Under the pieces are notes generated by a model, which made no database searches, was not told where the DNA came from, and was given only the letters and a program-made list of their open reading frames with translations. A DNA stretch of 31,493 nucleotides from a virus, in the IMG/VR virus record IMGVR_UViG_3300033148_006747, positions 1 to 31,493 of that record; one strand, written 5' to 3'. Positions 2,174-30,190 of this stretch are shown piece by piece. A program made the translations under genes and the position numbers. Every line of letters begins with the position of its first letter. The stretch's first letter is position 1.

Positions 2174-2878
2174 CTACAGATCAAGATATTGCAATGTGCC
2201 CACCGCTGCTGCTGGGCGCCAAGTTGCGTTAGAGGATATGGACGCATTTCCTGTGCCAGAGGTACCAGATAAACCAGGAGAAGCGTTATTTGTATAGAGG
2301 TCTTGGGGATAGTAGTCAGTAGTGCTGTCGCTTACAATAAGATGATTACGACTACTCGATTTCGGTCCGTATTTCTGGATTCCTTGTGCATCGCCAGCAC
2401 TGTTGTAGGAGTCATCCCAACCGTTATTCCCTTTTTCATTATACCATTGATGGTTGTGGGCATTGACCGTATATGATCCTGCTCCATGTGTGTGTCCATT
2501 ATCACTCAAACCTGTTATAGACCAGTTTCCAGCCGTAGCACCTCCTGATGTGTAAGTTGAACCTCCTTTAATTGCCAGCACTAGATCAGTTATAGATGAA
2601 TCTACCGCCCATCCATCCATAGCACTATCACGGTAAACCCATACCTTTTGATTTGTATCGCCGTGCATTAGGCCGAGCCAGGCAGCATTTGCGCTGTCGC
2701 GGTATTTGAGGACTTTCTGCGTAGTATCGAACCAGGGCATGCCCGCAATGGTGTTGGATGGGGCCGAGCCCCCCGAGAACATAGATTTAAGACAAGCAAA
2801 ATTATTCTCCATGTTTTGAAGATCCGTCTGGCCAACGTGTCCACCCGCAAAAACATCATCTGCCCAGTTTTGTGCCAT
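2174..2878 (-). CDS. Tail fibre / collar-type receptor-binding protein
   Basis: This 234-residue protein has features of short tail fibre and collar proteins. The N-terminal ~95 residues contain a repeated Y-R-D-S-A unit (KYRDSANAAWLGL at about 59-71 and VYRDSAMDGWAVD at about 81-93), typical of virion-attachment segments. Histidine pairs HTH (129-131) and HNH (141-143) resemble the metal-binding His-x-His strands of T4 gp12-type receptor-binding tips. The C-terminus ends with a WRPAAAVGTLQYL-type motif seen at fibre tips. The stretch from 105 to 225 is rich in Gly, Ser, Asn and Thr, as in a beta-structured fibre. It follows the J-like tip gene by 10 bases. It probably sets host range; the receptor is unknown. 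Confidence 0.8.
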   Translation of the reverse strand: MAQNWADDVFAGGHVGQTDLQNMENNFACLKSMFSGGSAPSNTIAGMPWFDTTQKVLKYRDSANAAWLGLMHGDTNQKVWVYRDSAMDGWAVDSSITDLVLAIKGGSTYTSGGATAGNWSITGLSDNGHTHGAGSYTVNAHNHQWYNEKGNNGWDDSYNSAGDAQGIQKYGPKSSSRNHLIVSDSTTDYYPQDLYTNNASPGLSGTSGTGNASISSNATWRPAAAVGTLQYLDL

Positions 2879-2888
2879 ATGATGTCTC

Positions 2889-5342
2889 CTATTGACAGAA
2901 TTTCAGGGTGAAATGCTCAACTAGAACATTTACCGCATCGCTCGGATCGGTAATCTCAATCTCTACCTGGAAATACCTGCCGGTCACTATGGCTGACAAG
3001 ATTTCCATCTTCTCAACTTCATTGGTGGGCGGGTTTGTCTCACCATATTTAAGTTTTATCTTTACCTGCGGCCCAGCGTTCAGCTCAAAGATTTCGTTCC
3101 AGGTTTTACTGGAGATTCCTATTTCATCCCATGTTGTACCAGGTGGAATCACGTCATTCCATGTTGTGCCCGCCCCAGTAACTACTATGTCTACCAGCAC
3201 ATAGACCATGTACCTGCCCGAAGATCCGAGATCGTAAACCGGAGATGTATAGGTTCCTGTCAGATTACCACTGCTATGTGAACACTTGAGATAATATTCG
3301 CTGTTGTATGTAGTCTGCTCAGTATTATTGTGAGTACCACTGGAATAATCACAGGCCTCAGTGTGCTGCACAGTCCATCCATCGGGAGGATCTTGCAGAG
3401 ACGCAGATGCTTGTTTTGGTGTATCTCCATATTCTCCATTGTTGGCTAAAGTATTGGCAAAAAAAGTATATTCTCCTGGTTTTACTCCATATAGGCTCAA
3501 GTTCGGGGCTCTTAATGCCGCCAGGAATATCGCACCTGACCACGATGGGCCAAGCCGAAATTCGTAAAGCTCGACATCAGGATCGCTGACTTTCTCAGCA
3601 TACAAATTGATAGTATTGGCGTTCACAATCGCATGCAGAGCCGAAAGCGATGTCGGTGCATCTGTTTTTCCCTGAATAGTGCGTGAGATCTTGTAAGCAT
3701 TGCTCATGCTCTGCTTTGTGCCCCAGATAGAGACAGTACGGAGTTTGACGTAATGTGTTTCACCTTCTTCGACCGGATCAATTGCAAAGTCATTGGTGGT
3801 ATCAAACAGGTGTTTATAGTTGGAATCATCTGTGCTCCACCATACTTCCACGTGGCTAAACCAGGGGTAATTGGCAGGCTCGTCAAAGCTGATCTTCCAG
3901 CGGGTGAAGGATCTCAAGCGGTAGTAGTAAACTTCCTCACTTTGGGTCACATTGCCAACAGATGGCGGTTCATCAGTTGGATCAGGTAGGGTAGTAGTAT
4001 AGGTTTCTTCGGTGTTAATGTTATACTCATCATCATACAGATCATCAGACTCATATTGCAGCTTGAGGTCAATAAATCCATCGGGCCTGATATTAGCCTC
4101 TGCAACTCTCATTAGTTGGTTTGAGACCGAGATCGCAGATGATGTTAGTGTGACTAAGTCATGTGGCTCTAGCTTTACCGCATCGTCTCTTACAGTCAAC
4201 GAGATAGTGCGATCTAGCTGCCAGCGCTCCAACCAGTATGTGGCAAGTTGCCCCGCTGTCTCCCTATCTGTGAAGCCTGTGAGCCGCAAATCCTTGATAT
4301 TGCCAGTTTCCTCACCGACAAAGAAAGAATCCTCTACATATTCGTCATTGTCGGCTTTAATATAATAAACCCTGAGCCCATCTGGCCGGTCCCACATGGA
4401 ATCTTGATCAACTGAGATCATCGCCTTGCCGTCTGGACCTTGGACGATGTGCTCATCGGTGATGTCCATGACTGTGGATTCGCTAGTGGTATCAGCATAG
4501 TAGAGATAATACTTGCCATCATATTGAGTAATAGTGAGCCTTGCATGAAGCAGGATAGTTTTGAGAATATCCCAACCAGATGATTGAGCATTGGACACTG
4601 CTAGATTAAGTTTCCATCCTTTCGTGTCACAGTAATTGGCCGCGGCAGTCCAGGAGTCAGTATCTATTTGCGATGCACTTTTCCCCAAACCATACCGACT
4701 GTTGGTGAGCCAGTCATATGCAATTAACACGGGATTTTGCGACCATGCCGTGGTACTGTCACGGAAATCATATAGTTTGCGGCCCTTCAATATGACCGTG
4801 CGTTGCGGCAGGTTTTGAAAATAATCCCTGTCATAAGTGAGATGCCACACAATATAACAGGTATAGCGCAAATTGTCTGTCCAACGGGAATCTGCTGTAT
4901 GAAGATTGGTATCATAAGTTTGGGATGAAGAGCCCGAATGGAACCAATATTCAGCGTTTCCCCCATATTCACTGTAAAGCTTATCGCCTAAATAGGCGGC
5001 TGTAATAGAATCACACTCTCCTTCGCTTAAAGTCTGTACAATCCACAGATCTTTGAGATCATCACCTGTGGAATGGATATATATGTCATTGCCGCCAACT
5101 CGCAATTGCCCATAAACTATCTTCAAGGGTTCGCTGGTAGAGCGGGTATTGAGTTTGAGCCCAGCAGATCCGCGGGTGAGCAAATCAGTAGCATCTAGCT
5201 TTGGAGACTCAATATCGGACCTAGAGACAAGCCCTCCCACAATCCCACTACCAAAAGCAATAGCAAAACCGAGAGGTCCGCCGACAACAATGCCAGCGAC
5301 TGCCCCAGCTATTCCTATTATTTGCCCTGCTTCTTTGCCCAT
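2889..5342 (-). CDS. Tail tip / central fibre protein, lambda gpJ-like
   Basis: An 817-residue protein in the position and with the organisation of lambda J. A Gly/Ala-rich hydrophobic segment (residues 6-41) opens it, followed by a tip-hub region with patterns such as EPLKIVYGQLRVGGND and VQTLSEGECD. The middle (about 200-430) carries the tail-hub core, including LMRVAEANIRPDGFIDLKL. After a Pro-rich linker near 455, FnIII-like beta domains run to about 650, and the end looks like a carbohydrate-binding or fibre-like domain (about 660-817). It is slightly shorter than lambda gpJ. It would form the host-contacting tip of the tail. The start overlaps the NlpC/P60 gene by 25 bases, as in other tip operons where hydrolase, assembly factor and J are adjacent. 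No separate gpI gene is seen; the Gly-rich N-terminus may take that role, but this is only an inference. Confidence 0.85.
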   Translation of the reverse strand: MGKEAGQIIGIAGAVAGIVVGGPLGFAIAFGSGIVGGLVSRSDIESPKLDATDLLTRGSAGLKLNTRSTSEPLKIVYGQLRVGGNDIYIHSTGDDLKDLWIVQTLSEGECDSITAAYLGDKLYSEYGGNAEYWFHSGSSSQTYDTNLHTADSRWTDNLRYTCYIVWHLTYDRDYFQNLPQRTVILKGRKLYDFRDSTTAWSQNPVLIAYDWLTNSRYGLGKSASQIDTDSWTAAANYCDTKGWKLNLAVSNAQSSGWDILKTILLHARLTITQYDGKYYLYYADTTSESTVMDITDEHIVQGPDGKAMISVDQDSMWDRPDGLRVYYIKADNDEYVEDSFFVGEETGNIKDLRLTGFTDRETAGQLATYWLERWQLDRTISLTVRDDAVKLEPHDLVTLTSSAISVSNQLMRVAEANIRPDGFIDLKLQYESDDLYDDEYNINTEETYTTTLPDPTDEPPSVGNVTQSEEVYYYRLRSFTRWKISFDEPANYPWFSHVEVWWSTDDSNYKHLFDTTNDFAIDPVEEGETHYVKLRTVSIWGTKQSMSNAYKISRTIQGKTDAPTSLSALHAIVNANTINLYAEKVSDPDVELYEFRLGPSWSGAIFLAALRAPNLSLYGVKPGEYTFFANTLANNGEYGDTPKQASASLQDPPDGWTVQHTEACDYSSGTHNNTEQTTYNSEYYLKCSHSSGNLTGTYTSPVYDLGSSGRYMVYVLVDIVVTGAGTTWNDVIPPGTTWDEIGISSKTWNEIFELNAGPQVKIKLKYGETNPPTNEVEKMEILSAIVTGRYFQVEIEITDPSDAVNVLVEHFTLKFCQ

Positions 5343-5773
5343 CTATAAGCCTTCTCTATCTCGAAAAGTCTTAGACTAACTAGCTCAACACCCTTGTCTT
5401 CAAGTGCTGTCAATACAAGAGTTTGCCCTGCATGAATGCCAAAAACCTTTTCCCCACTTGCTTTTGCCCTAAGTTCTAGGATGTCTCCCGCCAAAGCTCT
5501 TTCAGGCGGTATTTCATCGCCTAACTCCCTTAAAAATTCTGAAAAGATAGCTTCAGCTTTTGCCTGATCCTCAATCCACAACTGAGGATAGCTTTCTTTT
5601 GTGATATCTTTAAACACGATTGGTGGATTAACCCCGATATGCTCACCTGCACACATGATCAGGCTAAGGCAGTCAAAGCCTTCTTTTCTGTTCCACCCTC
5701 CAAGCTTGTAGGGTGCTCCCCTGAATTTATCTGTCAGAAGCCTGATGTTCATGACTTTGGCTGCCTCCCCCAC
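5318..5773 (-). CDS. NlpC/P60-family tail tip peptidoglycan hydrolase
   Basis: A 151-residue protein with the NlpC/P60 cysteine peptidase layout. The nucleophile is Cys35 in GFDCLSLI, preceded by PYKLGGWN, a variant of the usual Y-x-W/L-G-G motif. The likely catalytic His is His114 in FGIHAGQ, next to a small beta barrel. These enzymes cut peptide links in the cell wall. In lambda-like phages the gpK equivalent sits just before J and is thought to help the tail tip pass the peptidoglycan. The gene overlaps both neighbours (25 bases each side), consistent with coupled translation. A start at Met8 is equally possible. The third catalytic polar residue is not certain by eye. Confidence 0.85.
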   Translation of the reverse strand: MGEAAKVMNIRLLTDKFRGAPYKLGGWNRKEGFDCLSLIMCAGEHIGVNPPIVFKDITKESYPQLWIEDQAKAEAIFSEFLRELGDEIPPERALAGDILELRAKASGEKVFGIHAGQTLVLTALEDKGVELVSLRLFEIEKAYRWAKKQGK

Positions 5774-7029
5774 CAGATTTCTTTATCCATTATAGATGGC
5801 AGCCACCGGAAGCCGCCGAAATTCGCAGTATTGCCGAGGGCTGAACATCGAGCATAACTGCGATCGCACCAGGTTTCAGATCCTGTATAACCGCATTCTG
5901 GCCCTTTAAATACGCGCCACCTGCACGATGCGGGATGACGGGAAAGTGGCTTACGAGCCCACTGAACATTCATATCCGCAATTGTCATCACCAATTGAGC
6001 CTCGTCTAATGACCACCTGTCAATCTGCCCATTAAACAATGTTATAGCCCCCGCTGACATGTCCTGGCCTGGGTTGTTGTAGAGATAACTTATTTCTGCA
6101 TCTGAAAGTTTTCTGTTATAAATTCTTAGTTCATCAACCTTTCCATCAAAGTATTGTGAACCCCATCTAGCTATTCTAATATCTTGATCTGGTATTTGTA
6201 TCTTGCCAGAGAAAGATTGGCTGCCTGTATGAGAGCCATTATGGTATGCTTTGATTGTCGTTTCGCCTGAGCCACTGTTGTATTCCCAGATACAACAAAA
6301 ATGTATCCACTCATCAAGAGATAACTCATCCGTAAGCATCACGGAATAGGTTGTATCACCATTCCCAACTATCCAAAAAAGACCGTTCGTACTTGAATAG
6401 TAGTATGTTCTAAACTCATAGTTTCCAGCACTGCTATGCTCGCTGCAAAATATACGAACATTATTTGTTGTTGAGTCAACATATACAAAGGCAGACCATG
6501 TACCAGCATCTTGGTTTAAAATAGAAGTAGGAACCGAAACATAATCATCCGTCCCATCAAAATCTAAAGCATACCCACTTTTTCCAGTAACCCAATCGGG
6601 GCCACCATATATGGTACCATCATTCCCGTTTCCGCTTCTGTCATGCAGCGTTGTTCCAGATCCTTCGTCAAAGTCATAAGCAGCCACCAAGCCCCAAGGT
6701 TGGCCTAAAATGTGCCAATCATTATCCATTAACATCTGTCTCAATATGACTGGCGACCCTTGCGGTGTACCACCGACAAAGATTGACGTAAAAACAGAGT
6801 TGAGGTTGTCCAGGGTAATATCGAATCCGTCCACCATGCCTGTAGAGTTATACCTAATAGAGCCGATCCGCATACCTAAAGGCTCGTAAGTGTTGCCATT
6901 ATAGTTGATCGGAACGTCGCAGTTCGTATATCTGTATGTTGTGCCGTCAATAGTCATTTCCAAGAGAAGAAATGGCCTTAATTCCTCGGCAGCTAATGCA
7001 CTCAGCACATCTGTGTTTATGTTACGCAT
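5749..7029 (-). CDS. Minor tail protein L-like with an inserted LamG/concanavalin-like domain
   Basis: Residues 1-110 (VLSALAAEELRPFLLLEMTI onward) and 321-426 read as a split minor tail protein of the DUF2163/lambda gpL type. The C-terminal part keeps four cysteines in CxxxxxxxxxC, then 8 and 6 residues between Cys (Cys369, 379, 388, 395) and a following NFGGFRW, the pattern of the gpL iron-sulfur site. Between them, residues about 111-320 form a complete LamG-type lectin domain: opening WGLVAAYDFDEGSGTTLHD, GYALDFDGTDDYVSVP in the middle, and closing DGKVDELRIYNRKLSDAEI. LamG folds bind sugars or proteins. The DNA for this part is more AT-rich than its flanks, suggesting later insertion. 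The protein belongs to the tail tip, between the DUF2460-like and NlpC/P60 genes. Confidence 0.85.
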   Translation of the reverse strand: MRNINTDVLSALAAEELRPFLLLEMTIDGTTYRYTNCDVPINYNGNTYEPLGMRIGSIRYNSTGMVDGFDITLDNLNSVFTSIFVGGTPQGSPVILRQMLMDNDWHILGQPWGLVAAYDFDEGSGTTLHDRSGNGNDGTIYGGPDWVTGKSGYALDFDGTDDYVSVPTSILNQDAGTWSAFVYVDSTTNNVRIFCSEHSSAGNYEFRTYYYSSTNGLFWIVGNGDTTYSVMLTDELSLDEWIHFCCIWEYNSGSGETTIKAYHNGSHTGSQSFSGKIQIPDQDIRIARWGSQYFDGKVDELRIYNRKLSDAEISYLYNNPGQDMSAGAITLFNGQIDRWSLDEAQLVMTIADMNVQWARKPLSRHPASCRWRVFKGPECGYTGSETWCDRSYARCSALGNTANFGGFRWLPSIMDKEIWWGRQPKS

Positions 7030-7600
7030 TTAATAATCCCTGAAGTTTCAACCCTGTTCTGTAAAGTGTGGTCACAAAGTTTTCGAAACTCATTATGTCT
7101 TCTGCGAACCTACATCTGACTTTCAAATACCCTGAGAAATCAAATGTTATCCTCTGGCCAGAGTTAGGAGCCGTAGTAAACTCGCACTTGTCAGCTCCAT
7201 CTGCCCCACCCTCTGAGGTGAACGTCCAATTAGTACCCTCTGTTTGCGACACCCCATCTATGTAAAGTGTCCTGGAAGTTGCACTCTTTGATGGCAGGTT
7301 GAAAACCGTTGTAGACCCATCCCCTGTTCCTACATACTCGCCCTCATATGTATTCGAGTAGGGATGAAACCAGTTGAATGCTTCATAAGAACCGCTTCGA
7401 TCCAAGTAAAATTGCCATAGAGTACGAATGTCAGACTGACTAAGTCCGTTGAACCTGAGCGTGATTATCCTGCGGGGATACAACCACTTGCGCTTACGCT
7501 GCTCTTCGCCTAAATTGTCGAAATTGCTTATCAGCGTCTTAAATGCTATCTCCTCAATAAGAGGATAAACAGCGCTGATTGTATCAGGAAACTTAGCCAC
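7022..7600 (-). CDS. Tail tip-proximal protein, DUF2460-like
   Basis: A 192-residue beta-rich protein directly after the tape measure and before the L-like protein, the place of the distal tail/minor tail M-type protein. Visible segments are an N-terminal KWLYPRRIITLRFNGLSQSD followed by an aromatic-rich FYLDRSGSYEAFNWFHPYS. A central segment, VGTGDGSTTVFNLPSKSATS with TLYIDGVSQTEGTNWTF, is a small beta insertion often seen in phage baseplate proteins. The end is KVRCRFAEDIMSFENFVTTL. The N- and C-terminal parts resemble the DUF2460/TIGR02217 family. It would form the ring joining tail tube to tip. The stop overlaps the next start by 8 bases. The family call is moderately certain. Confidence 0.7.
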   Translation of the reverse strand: MAKFPDTISAVYPLIEEIAFKTLISNFDNLGEEQRKRKWLYPRRIITLRFNGLSQSDIRTLWQFYLDRSGSYEAFNWFHPYSNTYEGEYVGTGDGSTTVFNLPSKSATSRTLYIDGVSQTEGTNWTFTSEGGADGADKCEFTTAPNSGQRITFDFSGYLKVRCRFAEDIMSFENFVTTLYRTGLKLQGLLNA

Positions 7601-27811: not shown

Positions 27812-30190
27812 TCAGGTTTCGTCCAATTTGCGCCAGATGGTACCCTCAGGGGTATCCACAAGCTCAATGCCCATATCCCGAAGCTGATTACGTATAGTAT
27901 CAGCAGTATCCCAATCCTTTTTCTTTCGGGCGGTCTCTCTTTCTTTGATCAAGGCCATGATTTCCTCGCTTATTTGGTGTGGTTCCAGATGCATCACACC
28001 CAGGACGGTATTGATTCGCTCAAGTGCTTTGAGCGTTTTTGTTTTATCATCTTGGGAGAGGCCGTGGCGGTCCATTATACGATTAATCTGTCTCATAAAA
28101 TGGAAGAGAGAGGCAAGACCTGCGGCTATATTCATATCGTCGTCCATGGCCTCTGTGAACCCATGGCGCAGATCATAGATAAGCTGGTCAATTTCCTGAT
28201 TCGGGGGGGCTTCGGCACAGAAATGCAATTTTTGGACAAAGCTGTCTAAATGGGCCAAGGTGTTTTTGACTGAATCCAGTTTTGCCCAAGAAAATATGAG
28301 GGGCTTGCGATAGTGACGACTCATGAGGAAATAACGCACTTCTCTGCCTGTGTAGCCCTCTTTTAGAATATCTCTCAAAAGGAGTAAGTCAGGGGCTTGC
28401 GAGTCGGCCCCTTTATTGTTGTTCACCGTCACCAATTCATTATGCAGCCAAAATTGGGCTGGTGGGCTGCCACTTAAGGCCTTGTTGATGGCTATGGCAT
28501 TTTCATGGTGAGGAAATATAAGCTCCACGCCACTGGTATGTATATCATAGGTCTCACCAGCAAATTTCCGTGCAATGGCAGAACACTCTAGATGCCAGCT
28601 GGGTCTTACGTTGCCCCAAGGGGTCTGATAAAAGATCCCTTTTTTCAACTCATTTAAGGTAGACCTTTTTAGTAATGTGAAGTCCCTAGGATTGTCCTTC
28701 TCATATTGATCTAAATCTACGGTTTTACCCAGTTGAATCTTGTCAAGATCGATCTTTGAAAGGTTTCCATATCCCTTTGCACGAGATATGTCAAAATAGA
28801 TGGAGCGGAACTTTTCGTAAGCAAGGCCCTTTTCCACAAGCTTTTTAGTCAGGGAGATCATCTCGTCAACATGATCAGAGGCCTTTGGATAGTGGGTCGC
28901 CTTTTTGATGTTGAGTTTATCCAGGTCTTCCATGAAGGCCTTATAATAACCCTCTGTATACTCCTTTAGCGACATATCGGCCTTTTCTGCTCCCTCAATT
29001 GTGCGGTCGTCCAGGTCTGTGACATTCATAATATAAATGACCTTGAATCCCTTGAACTCCAGGTAGCGTCTCAATAGATCTGCAAACACAAACCTCCTGC
29101 ACTGCCCCAGGTTGATTAATTGGCAGAGGGTTGGGCCGCAGGAATAGATAGTCACCTGGTTTTCCTCCAGGGGTATAAATTCTTCTTTCTTGCGAGTGAG
29201 CGTGTTGTAAAAACGTATGCCGGAGGTCTTTTTTACAGTGAACAGGGGGGTACTCAGATATCGCTCGCCTCCGTCAGGCAAGACCACCACAATGCGGCCC
29301 TTGTCCATTTCAGCAGCAAGCCGCAACGCTGCTGCCATGGCTGCTCCGGAACTCATACCAACGAACACCCCCTCTTTTTTTGCCAGTTCCCTGGCCGTAT
29401 GAAAGGCCTCTTCATCATCAATATGAATTATTCGGTCCAGAAGCTCTCGCTGAAAAATCCCGGGTTGATAAGACTCTTTCATGTTTTTGAGGCCTTGAAT
29501 CTTATGGCCCAAGTAGGGTTCCACCCCTACCACCTGTATACGTGGGTTGAGTTCCTTAAGACGACGAGCAATCCCCATAAGCGTACCAGTGGTTCCCATG
29601 GTCGCCATGGCCACATCCAACTGCCCCTGAGTTTGCTTCCATATCTCCATGGCCGTCCCGTGGTAATGGGCCTTCCAATTGGCCTCATTGTTGAATTGAT
29701 CTGCCAGCCAATACCTATGAGGCTCTTCACGTACCAGTTTGTAAACATATTCAATGGCCCCGTCAGTGCTAAGCCGTGCAGGGGTGAAGCGAATTTCAGC
29801 GCCCATGGCCTTGAGGATCTTGACCCTTTCTTGGCTTACGGACTCGGACATGACCAGTAGGATCCGGTAGCCTTTGACTGCAGCCACCAGGGCAAGACCG
29901 ATACCAGTGTTTCCGCTTGTGGCCTCAAGGATGATTTTATCTTTAGTAAGCTCGCCTCTTTTTTCAGCTTCTTCGATCATATAAAGGGCAGGCCTGTCTT
30001 TTACCGATCCGCCCGGGTTGAAGCACTCCAATTTGGCCAGGATTTGCACTTGACTATTGGTAGCCAGCTTTTGAATCGGGACAAGAGGGGTATTCCCAAT
30101 CAGGTCCAAGATGTTGTCGAACTTTTTGGCCATGTAATGCAGCTCTCCGTCAAAGTTAAGCCTGTCACTATATCCAACCATTTGGTTCAT
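27812..30190 (-). CDS. Cysteine synthase fused to a degenerate cysteinyl-tRNA synthetase-like domain
   Basis: A 792-residue two-domain protein. Residues ~20-320 are cysteine synthase (O-acetylserine sulfhydrylase, PLP-dependent): IGNTPLV, the PLP lysine Lys64 in NPGGSVKDR, the phosphate loop MGTTGTLMG, and SSGAA near the end. Residues ~325-792 align with CysRS, for example YLEFKGFKVIYIMNVTDLDD and REVRYFLMSRHYRKPLIFS. But HIGH is INLGQCR, KMSKS is replaced by NNNKGADSQAPD, and the fourth zinc ligand in FPHHENE is Ala (FPHHENA). Cys351, Cys536 and His561 remain. The second part is probably not a working synthetase. Met20 (30133) is an alternative start closer to the usual CysK N-terminus. A normal cysS should exist elsewhere. 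Confidence 0.9.
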   Translation of the reverse strand: MNQMVGYSDRLNFDGELHYMAKKFDNILDLIGNTPLVPIQKLATNSQVQILAKLECFNPGGSVKDRPALYMIEEAEKRGELTKDKIILEATSGNTGIGLALVAAVKGYRILLVMSESVSQERVKILKAMGAEIRFTPARLSTDGAIEYVYKLVREEPHRYWLADQFNNEANWKAHYHGTAMEIWKQTQGQLDVAMATMGTTGTLMGIARRLKELNPRIQVVGVEPYLGHKIQGLKNMKESYQPGIFQRELLDRIIHIDDEEAFHTARELAKKEGVFVGMSSGAAMAAALRLAAEMDKGRIVVVLPDGGERYLSTPLFTVKKTSGIRFYNTLTRKKEEFIPLEENQVTIYSCGPTLCQLINLGQCRRFVFADLLRRYLEFKGFKVIYIMNVTDLDDRTIEGAEKADMSLKEYTEGYYKAFMEDLDKLNIKKATHYPKASDHVDEMISLTKKLVEKGLAYEKFRSIYFDISRAKGYGNLSKIDLDKIQLGKTVDLDQYEKDNPRDFTLLKRSTLNELKKGIFYQTPWGNVRPSWHLECSAIARKFAGETYDIHTSGVELIFPHHENAIAINKALSGSPPAQFWLHNELVTVNNNKGADSQAPDLLLLRDILKEGYTGREVRYFLMSRHYRKPLIFSWAKLDSVKNTLAHLDSFVQKLHFCAEAPPNQEIDQLIYDLRHGFTEAMDDDMNIAAGLASLFHFMRQINRIMDRHGLSQDDKTKTLKALERINTVLGVMHLEPHQISEEIMALIKERETARKKKDWDTADTIRNQLRDMGIELVDTPEGTIWRKLDET

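Follow-up and report, generated by a model that had tools for sequence, protein, structure and literature searches.

The window analyzed here is the whole 31,493-nucleotide stretch of IMG/VR virus record IMGVR_UViG_3300033148_006747. Its minus strand carries structural genes for a gpA-type terminase, a lambda-family portal, capsid, tail tube, tape measure, the distal tail protein Dit, a hub, an NlpC/P60 peptidase, and J. The order Dit-hub-NlpC/P60-J, which marks the gpL/RcGTA hub family, is also that of RcGTA g12 to g15 (PMC7296036). Because the right end carries bacterial-type genes, including a sugar-nucleotide epimerase/dehydratase, the window is read as a prophage fragment. Positions 27812 to 30190 encode a 792-aa fusion of cysteine synthase and cysteinyl-tRNA synthetase, which lies on the host side and may help to place the host lineage. 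The N terminus of the fiber candidate (2174 to 2878) resembles that of its counterpart in contig L084, and the remainder is unrelated. The features of the tail-tip region are collected in Table 1.

Table 1. Tail-tip features of the window, with comparisons to the related contigs L003 and L004 and to the insert-free contigs L087 and L088.
Feature	Coordinates	Strand	Hub residues	Remarks
Putative fiber protein	2174..2878	(-)		~70 N-terminal residues 53% similar to L004's contig; remainder not alignable by BLASTP
J/megatron-type central tail protein	2889..5342	(-)		83% identical in L004's contig
NlpC/P60 tail peptidase	5318..5773	(-)		Position of RcGTA g14; 90% identical in L004's contig
Tail-tip hub gene, gpL/RcGTA g13 type, with inserted LamG	5749..7029	(-)	1-426	426 aa
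Last HDI strands (328-341, 345-351) and putative 4Fe-4S domain	5752..6048	(-)	328-426	
Inserted segment	6049..6702	(-)	~110-327	Empty-site alignment with L087/L088; AlphaFold2 LamG at 110-322; ambiguous by 1-2 residues
Variable LamG core	6124..6603	(-)	143-302	29% amino acid and 44% nucleotide identity to L003/L004
HDI N-terminal part (attachment, tail-tube fold)	6703..7029	(-)	1-109	PF09931; AlphaFold2; structural matches of L088
Distal tail protein, Dit (DUF2460)	7022..7600	(-)		Weak Rcc01695-family match; 98% identical in L004's contig

The hub and its inserted LamG domain

The gene at the center of this study encodes a tail-tip hub of the gpL/RcGTA type. The Pfam family PF09931 (Baseplate hub protein, N-terminal attachment domain) matched residues 27 to 72 above its cutoff (E = 3.8e-7), which together with the tail-tube-fold matches described below identifies the HDI attachment domain of that family, and Phage_tail_L matched residues 353 to 386 below its cutoff. 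Between them lies Laminin_G_3 at residues 158 to 314 (E = 9.5e-27), complete from profile position 1 to 151 of 151. This bears out the claim of the first-pass annotation that a complete LamG domain sits inside a gpL-like protein. Its four downstream cysteines (369, 379, 388, and 395) and NFGGF motif were likewise found in place, the cysteines encoded at about 5925 to 5845 and the motif at residues 403 to 407. The equivalents of the four cysteines are invariant across 38 relatives and lie C-terminal to HDI. The region of the putative Fe-S domain was poorly modeled by AlphaFold2 (pLDDT of ~45 to 75), and the model of the insert-free L088 hub is also of low confidence there. Lambda gpL and Chi gp27 (Baseplate hub 1) likewise combine HDI with a Cys4 Fe-S domain, and both lack LamG; the cysteine spacing is 8/22/6 in gpL (Cys173, 182, 205, and 212) and 9/8/6 in the window.

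The borders of the insert could be set with the hubs of L087 (228 aa) and L088 (209 aa), two contigs that were reached via a Dit search (their Dit is 67% identical to that of the window) and whose hubs lack LamG. The L088 hub passes the cutoffs of both PF09931 and Phage_tail_L by itself. The alignment exposes an empty site, with "...VLG-PATVKIFEG..." in L088 and "...ILGQPWG...[LamG]...DMSAGAITLFNG..." in the window, and the insert is therefore taken as residues ~110 to 327. The location at 6070 to 6699 (residues 111 to 320) proposed earlier was thus correct, with borders that prove slightly wider. In the AlphaFold2 model of the window hub, the HDI strands extend to residue 101 and resume after LamG at 328 to 341; in that of L088, the equivalent strands (93 to 101 and 113 to 125) are linked by a short hairpin. 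Because the models with and without LamG have equal HDI strands, LamG stands in for the tip of one beta-hairpin; as modeled, it is inserted between strands 93 to 101 and 328 to 341, with the HDI fold intact.

A fold search with the L088 model retrieved the HDI of T5 pb3 (Z = 15.7, 3.2 Å over 142 residues), the RcGTA hub (Z = 14.3), lambda gpL (14.1), R4C (13.4), and the JBD30 gp50 and Chi hubs (Z = 13 to 14). The last five matches take in more residues, from both the HDI and the Fe-S region, but their root mean square deviation (rmsd) is about 10 Å; they are thus evidence for the domains, not for how the domains are placed relative to each other. A profile search with the hub reached Chi gp27 (E = 8e-8) and lambda gpL (E = 0.0015). 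The flanks of LamG therefore close into one gpL/HDI fold, as expected of an insertion.

The insert is also more AT rich than its surroundings, as the first-pass annotation had noted. The GC content of the LamG segment is 0.403, a value as low as which occurs in only 0.6% of 630-nt windows of the contig, and its GC3 of 0.319 is below all 465 sampled 210-codon windows from other phage genes. In each of five further LamG-bearing hubs that were checked, the GC3 of LamG is below that of the hub flanks. The LamG hub is not an assembly artifact, since a second contig is identical to the window over 9,278 bp and LamG occurs at the same hub position in relatives from other metagenomes. The insert is real and precisely delimited.

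Distribution of LamG among hubs

A set of 53 distinct hubs was assembled for tree building from a hub-based search, two further scans, and architecture mapping, with recruitment by motifs of the hub flanks and not by LamG. LamG was present at the window's site in seven of them (the window, L003, L117, L135, L140, L141, and L204) and absent from the site in the other 46. Neither observation named beforehand as refuting an insertion, a LamG shared by all relatives or flanks that do not join into one fold, was thus made. The seven are scattered on the hub tree, requiring five changes, three of which are forced by well-supported branches. A single origin of LamG on this tree gave a p-AU of 0.182 with six rows and of 0.044 with seven; one origin is thus borderline rejected, and independent gains are favored, short of proof. 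Two adjacent open reading frames in L056/L057 were considered as HDI-plus-LamG hubs and rejected, as there is no fusion. Scans of genome contigs with the hub alignment found no relative, and a close relative was absent from the cultured-phage collection, where the matches were HDI only (in Chi-like phages, at about 30 to 37% identity), LamG only, or obtained with the LamG-less hub (~30%, in Acinetobacter phage MD-2021a).

It is very improbable that LamG was ancestral to the hub family and was then lost repeatedly. The five label changes alone cannot separate gain from loss, and on the hub tree L117, which has LamG, is the well-supported sister of L087/L088, which do not; L117 resembles the window close to the insert ("DNDWHI(L/I)GQPWGLVAAYDFDEGSG") and L088 farther out, and the LamG ends of L117 and the window are near identical. 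Ancestry of LamG is nevertheless opposed by its absence from the site in most of the distinct hubs, by the ordinary hub size of the lambda gpL, RcGTA, and Chi homologs, by the presence of other domains in the same hairpin of L134 and L143, and by a LamG GC3 that is foreign to the remaining phage genes.

Exchange of the LamG core and its predicted function

The closest view of how LamG evolves comes from the comparison of the window with L003/L004. The hub flanks of these contigs are 94.5% and 97% identical to those of the window, and the ends of LamG are kept at 90 to 100%, whereas the core between them (Table 1) differs and contains indels. The left border of the core is abrupt, at residue 142/143, and the preceding 32 LamG residues are 100% identical in protein and 85% identical in DNA. 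Around the hub, J differs from that of L004 in one short stretch (around residues 726 to 750), and the fiber candidate is the other tail-tip protein with a differing body. Used as a query, the window core found LamGs of unrelated phage proteins and did not find that of L004 at E < 1e-6; the L004 core retrieved that of L117 at E = 8e-19, and these two pair in the LamG-core tree with support of 97/88. An approximately unbiased (AU) test against a clade of the window and L004 cores did not reach significance (P = 0.093). Phylogeny is thus insufficient by itself, and the contrast between flanks and core carries most weight. To judge from this one clean lineage pair, the LamG core has been exchanged between phages while its ends and the hub were conserved, a contrast that, in the alignments, matches the behavior of exchangeable receptor-binding modules. 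A diversity-generating retroelement was considered as the source of the variable core; block exchange fits better, because the cores differ over 160 residues, indels included.

The LamG model is closest to domain 4 of AbnA (PDB 5hon; Z = 25.0, 2.1 Å over 193 residues, 22% identity), which shares the ConA-like fold over the whole of LamG. That domain is an arabinan-binding module, solved with an arabino-oligosaccharide, and belongs to a secreted bacterial GH43 arabinanase rather than to a virion. A search of the LamG profile against the PDB gave the same AbnA module (E = 4.8e-16), an SAP-like pentraxin (E = 1.3e-13), and sialidase lectin domains. Clostridial neurotoxin chains also rank high in the fold search, as do sialidase chains, because all share the ConA-like jelly roll, and no relationship of LamG to toxins was drawn from them.

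In the first-pass annotation, a sugar-binding module here would place a receptor-binding function on an internal protein. That wording is misleading, because HDI belongs to the outermost ring of the tube and the homologous Fe-S domain of lambda is located at the outer surface of the tip (PMC10721106). An exposed position of the hairpin is further argued by its tolerance of inserts of varied size and origin and even of a break in the chain (in L133 and L136). The homologous HDIV domain of lambda gpJ has an OB domain on its beta5-beta6 loop (PMC11101478); in the order of secondary-structure elements, the LamG of the window likewise follows the first long strand past the helix. LamG most likely faces outward from the tail-tip ring and has host glycans as its ligands, as its position and its structural relatives suggest.

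The explanation that we prefer, with a probability of roughly 0.6, is that of a gpL-type hub with an outward, exchangeable LamG adhesin that binds host polysaccharide. The hub would be a trimer of the lambda gpL/RcGTA g13 kind, with a concanavalin A-like LamG module put into the HDI hairpin and the HDI fold kept. Each tip would display three LamG modules on the exterior of its ring; by binding a host-envelope polysaccharide, these would aid adsorption or orientation before J or the fiber commits. Recombination would swap the LamG core between phages, and since the core is exchanged while the ends and the hub stay conserved, LamG could be retargeted without disturbing tail assembly.

LamG and ConA folds can also bind proteins or merely stabilize. 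LamG might accordingly be a structural or stabilizing decoration with no specific receptor, as are many Ig-like domains of tails, making extra contacts between hub subunits or to Dit or J; its variability would then reflect drift, the module being exposed to solvent and under weak constraint. Glycan binding is predicted from likeness of fold, LamG-less hubs are common and presumably functional, and exposed decorations evolve rapidly, all of which would suit such a role. Drift does not readily account for well-kept LamG ends that meet a 29% identical core at an abrupt left border, for cores that group with other lineages and not with the sister phage, for a fold that is that of sugar-binding modules, or for the joint variation of LamG and the fiber tip, and we regard a decorative role as unlikely.

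A further alternative, which we consider quite improbable, is that LamG binds a protein or phage component, for example, as a socket that docks a fiber or depolymerase, its core covarying with the fiber. The body of the fiber candidate does differ between the window and L004's contig, and the upper baseplate protein of JBD30, a gpL homolog, helps in attachment of the tail fiber (PMC11445458). However, the N-terminal residues of the fiber candidate, likely its attachment part, are conserved while LamG differs, which is the opposite of coadapted docking, and the solved relatives of LamG are glycan-binding modules.

Hubs as carriers of inserted domains

Inserted sugar-binding modules in ring proteins of the tail tip are already known. 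In the evolved Dits of lactococcal and other siphophages, a carbohydrate-binding module (CBM) lies in a loop of a ring protein with the tail-tube fold, insert-bearing and insert-free forms coexist, and the type of insert tracks the exopolysaccharide (EPS) type of the host (PMC10688798, PMC9692632); in a laboratory test, adsorption to a host that produces EPS was regained once the insert was added (PMC10688798). The window hub resembles them in having an inserted module of the sugar-binding kind in a tail-tip ring protein. It differs in its carrier, which is the HDI of a gpL-type hub (a trimer in homologs) rather than the galectin domain of a Dit hexamer, the window's own Dit being free of LamG, and in its module, which is a LamG of predicted function rather than a BppA-like domain or CBM.

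The hubs of RcGTA (g13) and roseophage R4C share with the window the gene order and, as seen in the matches to the insert-free L088, the hub fold. The first-pass annotation took the LamG hub for a different way of changing host range. That the LamG core is exchanged between near-identical phages speaks for a role in changing host recognition; the route is not wholly new, since the RcGTA and R4C hubs have an inserted oligosaccharide-binding domain elsewhere, an OB-fold domain of about 80 aa (RcGTA 168 to 249) that interrupts the Fe-S domain (PMC7296036, PMC10276861). In the window, by contrast, it is HDI that is interrupted, by a LamG of ~215 aa, and the Fe-S domain is free of inserts, with Cys2 and Cys3 separated by only 8 residues. 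What is distinct here is the HDI of the hub as carrier, LamG as module, and the direct evidence, from sequence comparison, for core exchange among close relatives. A LamG-bearing baseplate hub of the window's type was not found described in the open literature searched, which is a weak indication that the architecture is novel.

Other hubs carry domains at three sites. At site A, after about residue 43, L128 has LamG plus ~400 other residues, and L110 has a domain of ~140 aa. At site B, the hairpin used in the window, L134 and L143 carry further domains. The unassigned inserted domains across hub sites span 120 to 240 aa. Among the side observations, the hub of L124 (670 to 2202) holds about 280 residues of nearly pure serine at site A, and that of L211 (2989 to 4011) has a 122-aa domain at site C, between Cys1 and Cys2 of the Fe-S domain. 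Neither Pfam nor PHROGs assigns a function to the inserts of L110, L134, L143, and L211 (that of L211 matches only PHROGs families of unknown function), and a carbohydrate-binding label was withheld from them for this reason.

Some hubs are unusual in other ways. L133 (790 to 1356 and 4929 to 5312) and L136 (961 to 1494 and 4959 to 5339), a sister pair in the hub tree, have a hub that is divided at site B into two open reading frames on the same strand. The halves lie about 3.5 kb apart, with several open reading frames between them that apparently have signal peptides; the N-terminal half ends in "WEYNETTGGIMPK"-like repeats, and the C-terminal half opens with a new ATG. Distant gpL-type Fe-S open reading frames in L160 (4692 to 7271), L161 (4500 to 7121), and L163 (4815 to 8126) have C-terminal extensions of 600 to 900 aa; that of L160 holds pectate-lyase-like beta-helix domains, making it a hub fused to a tailspike-like part. 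In L087 (3488 to 6265), NlpC/P60 and J apparently form one 925-aa open reading frame, which could be a real fusion or an assembly deletion; in L088 they are separate genes of 146 and 805 aa.

On the gpL-type hub, LamG most likely serves as a modular adhesin, with a role in binding that its fold predicts. More tentatively, and at somewhat less than even odds, the gpL-type hub may be a general adhesin chassis in a broad group of uncultured phages, in which sites A and B, the tips of two HDI hairpins, and site C, a loop of the Fe-S domain, would each accept unrelated ectodomains (LamG, unassigned domains, or a polyserine linker), site B could be split, and LamG cores would circulate by recombination within conserved ends. 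The plug-in sites reveal HDI hairpins that are tolerant of large inserts. The LamG hub would carry the idea of the evolved Dit over to the gpL-type hub, the ring beside the channel, in phages whose tail is lambda/GTA-like. The window and L003/L004 form a natural pair: they are nearly alike in the hub ring, in Dit, and in most of J and differ in the LamG core and fiber, and this makes host specificity of a ring protein, beyond that of fibers alone, testable. If the broader reading is true, the hub would be a receptor-switching device in the ring protein beside the channel.
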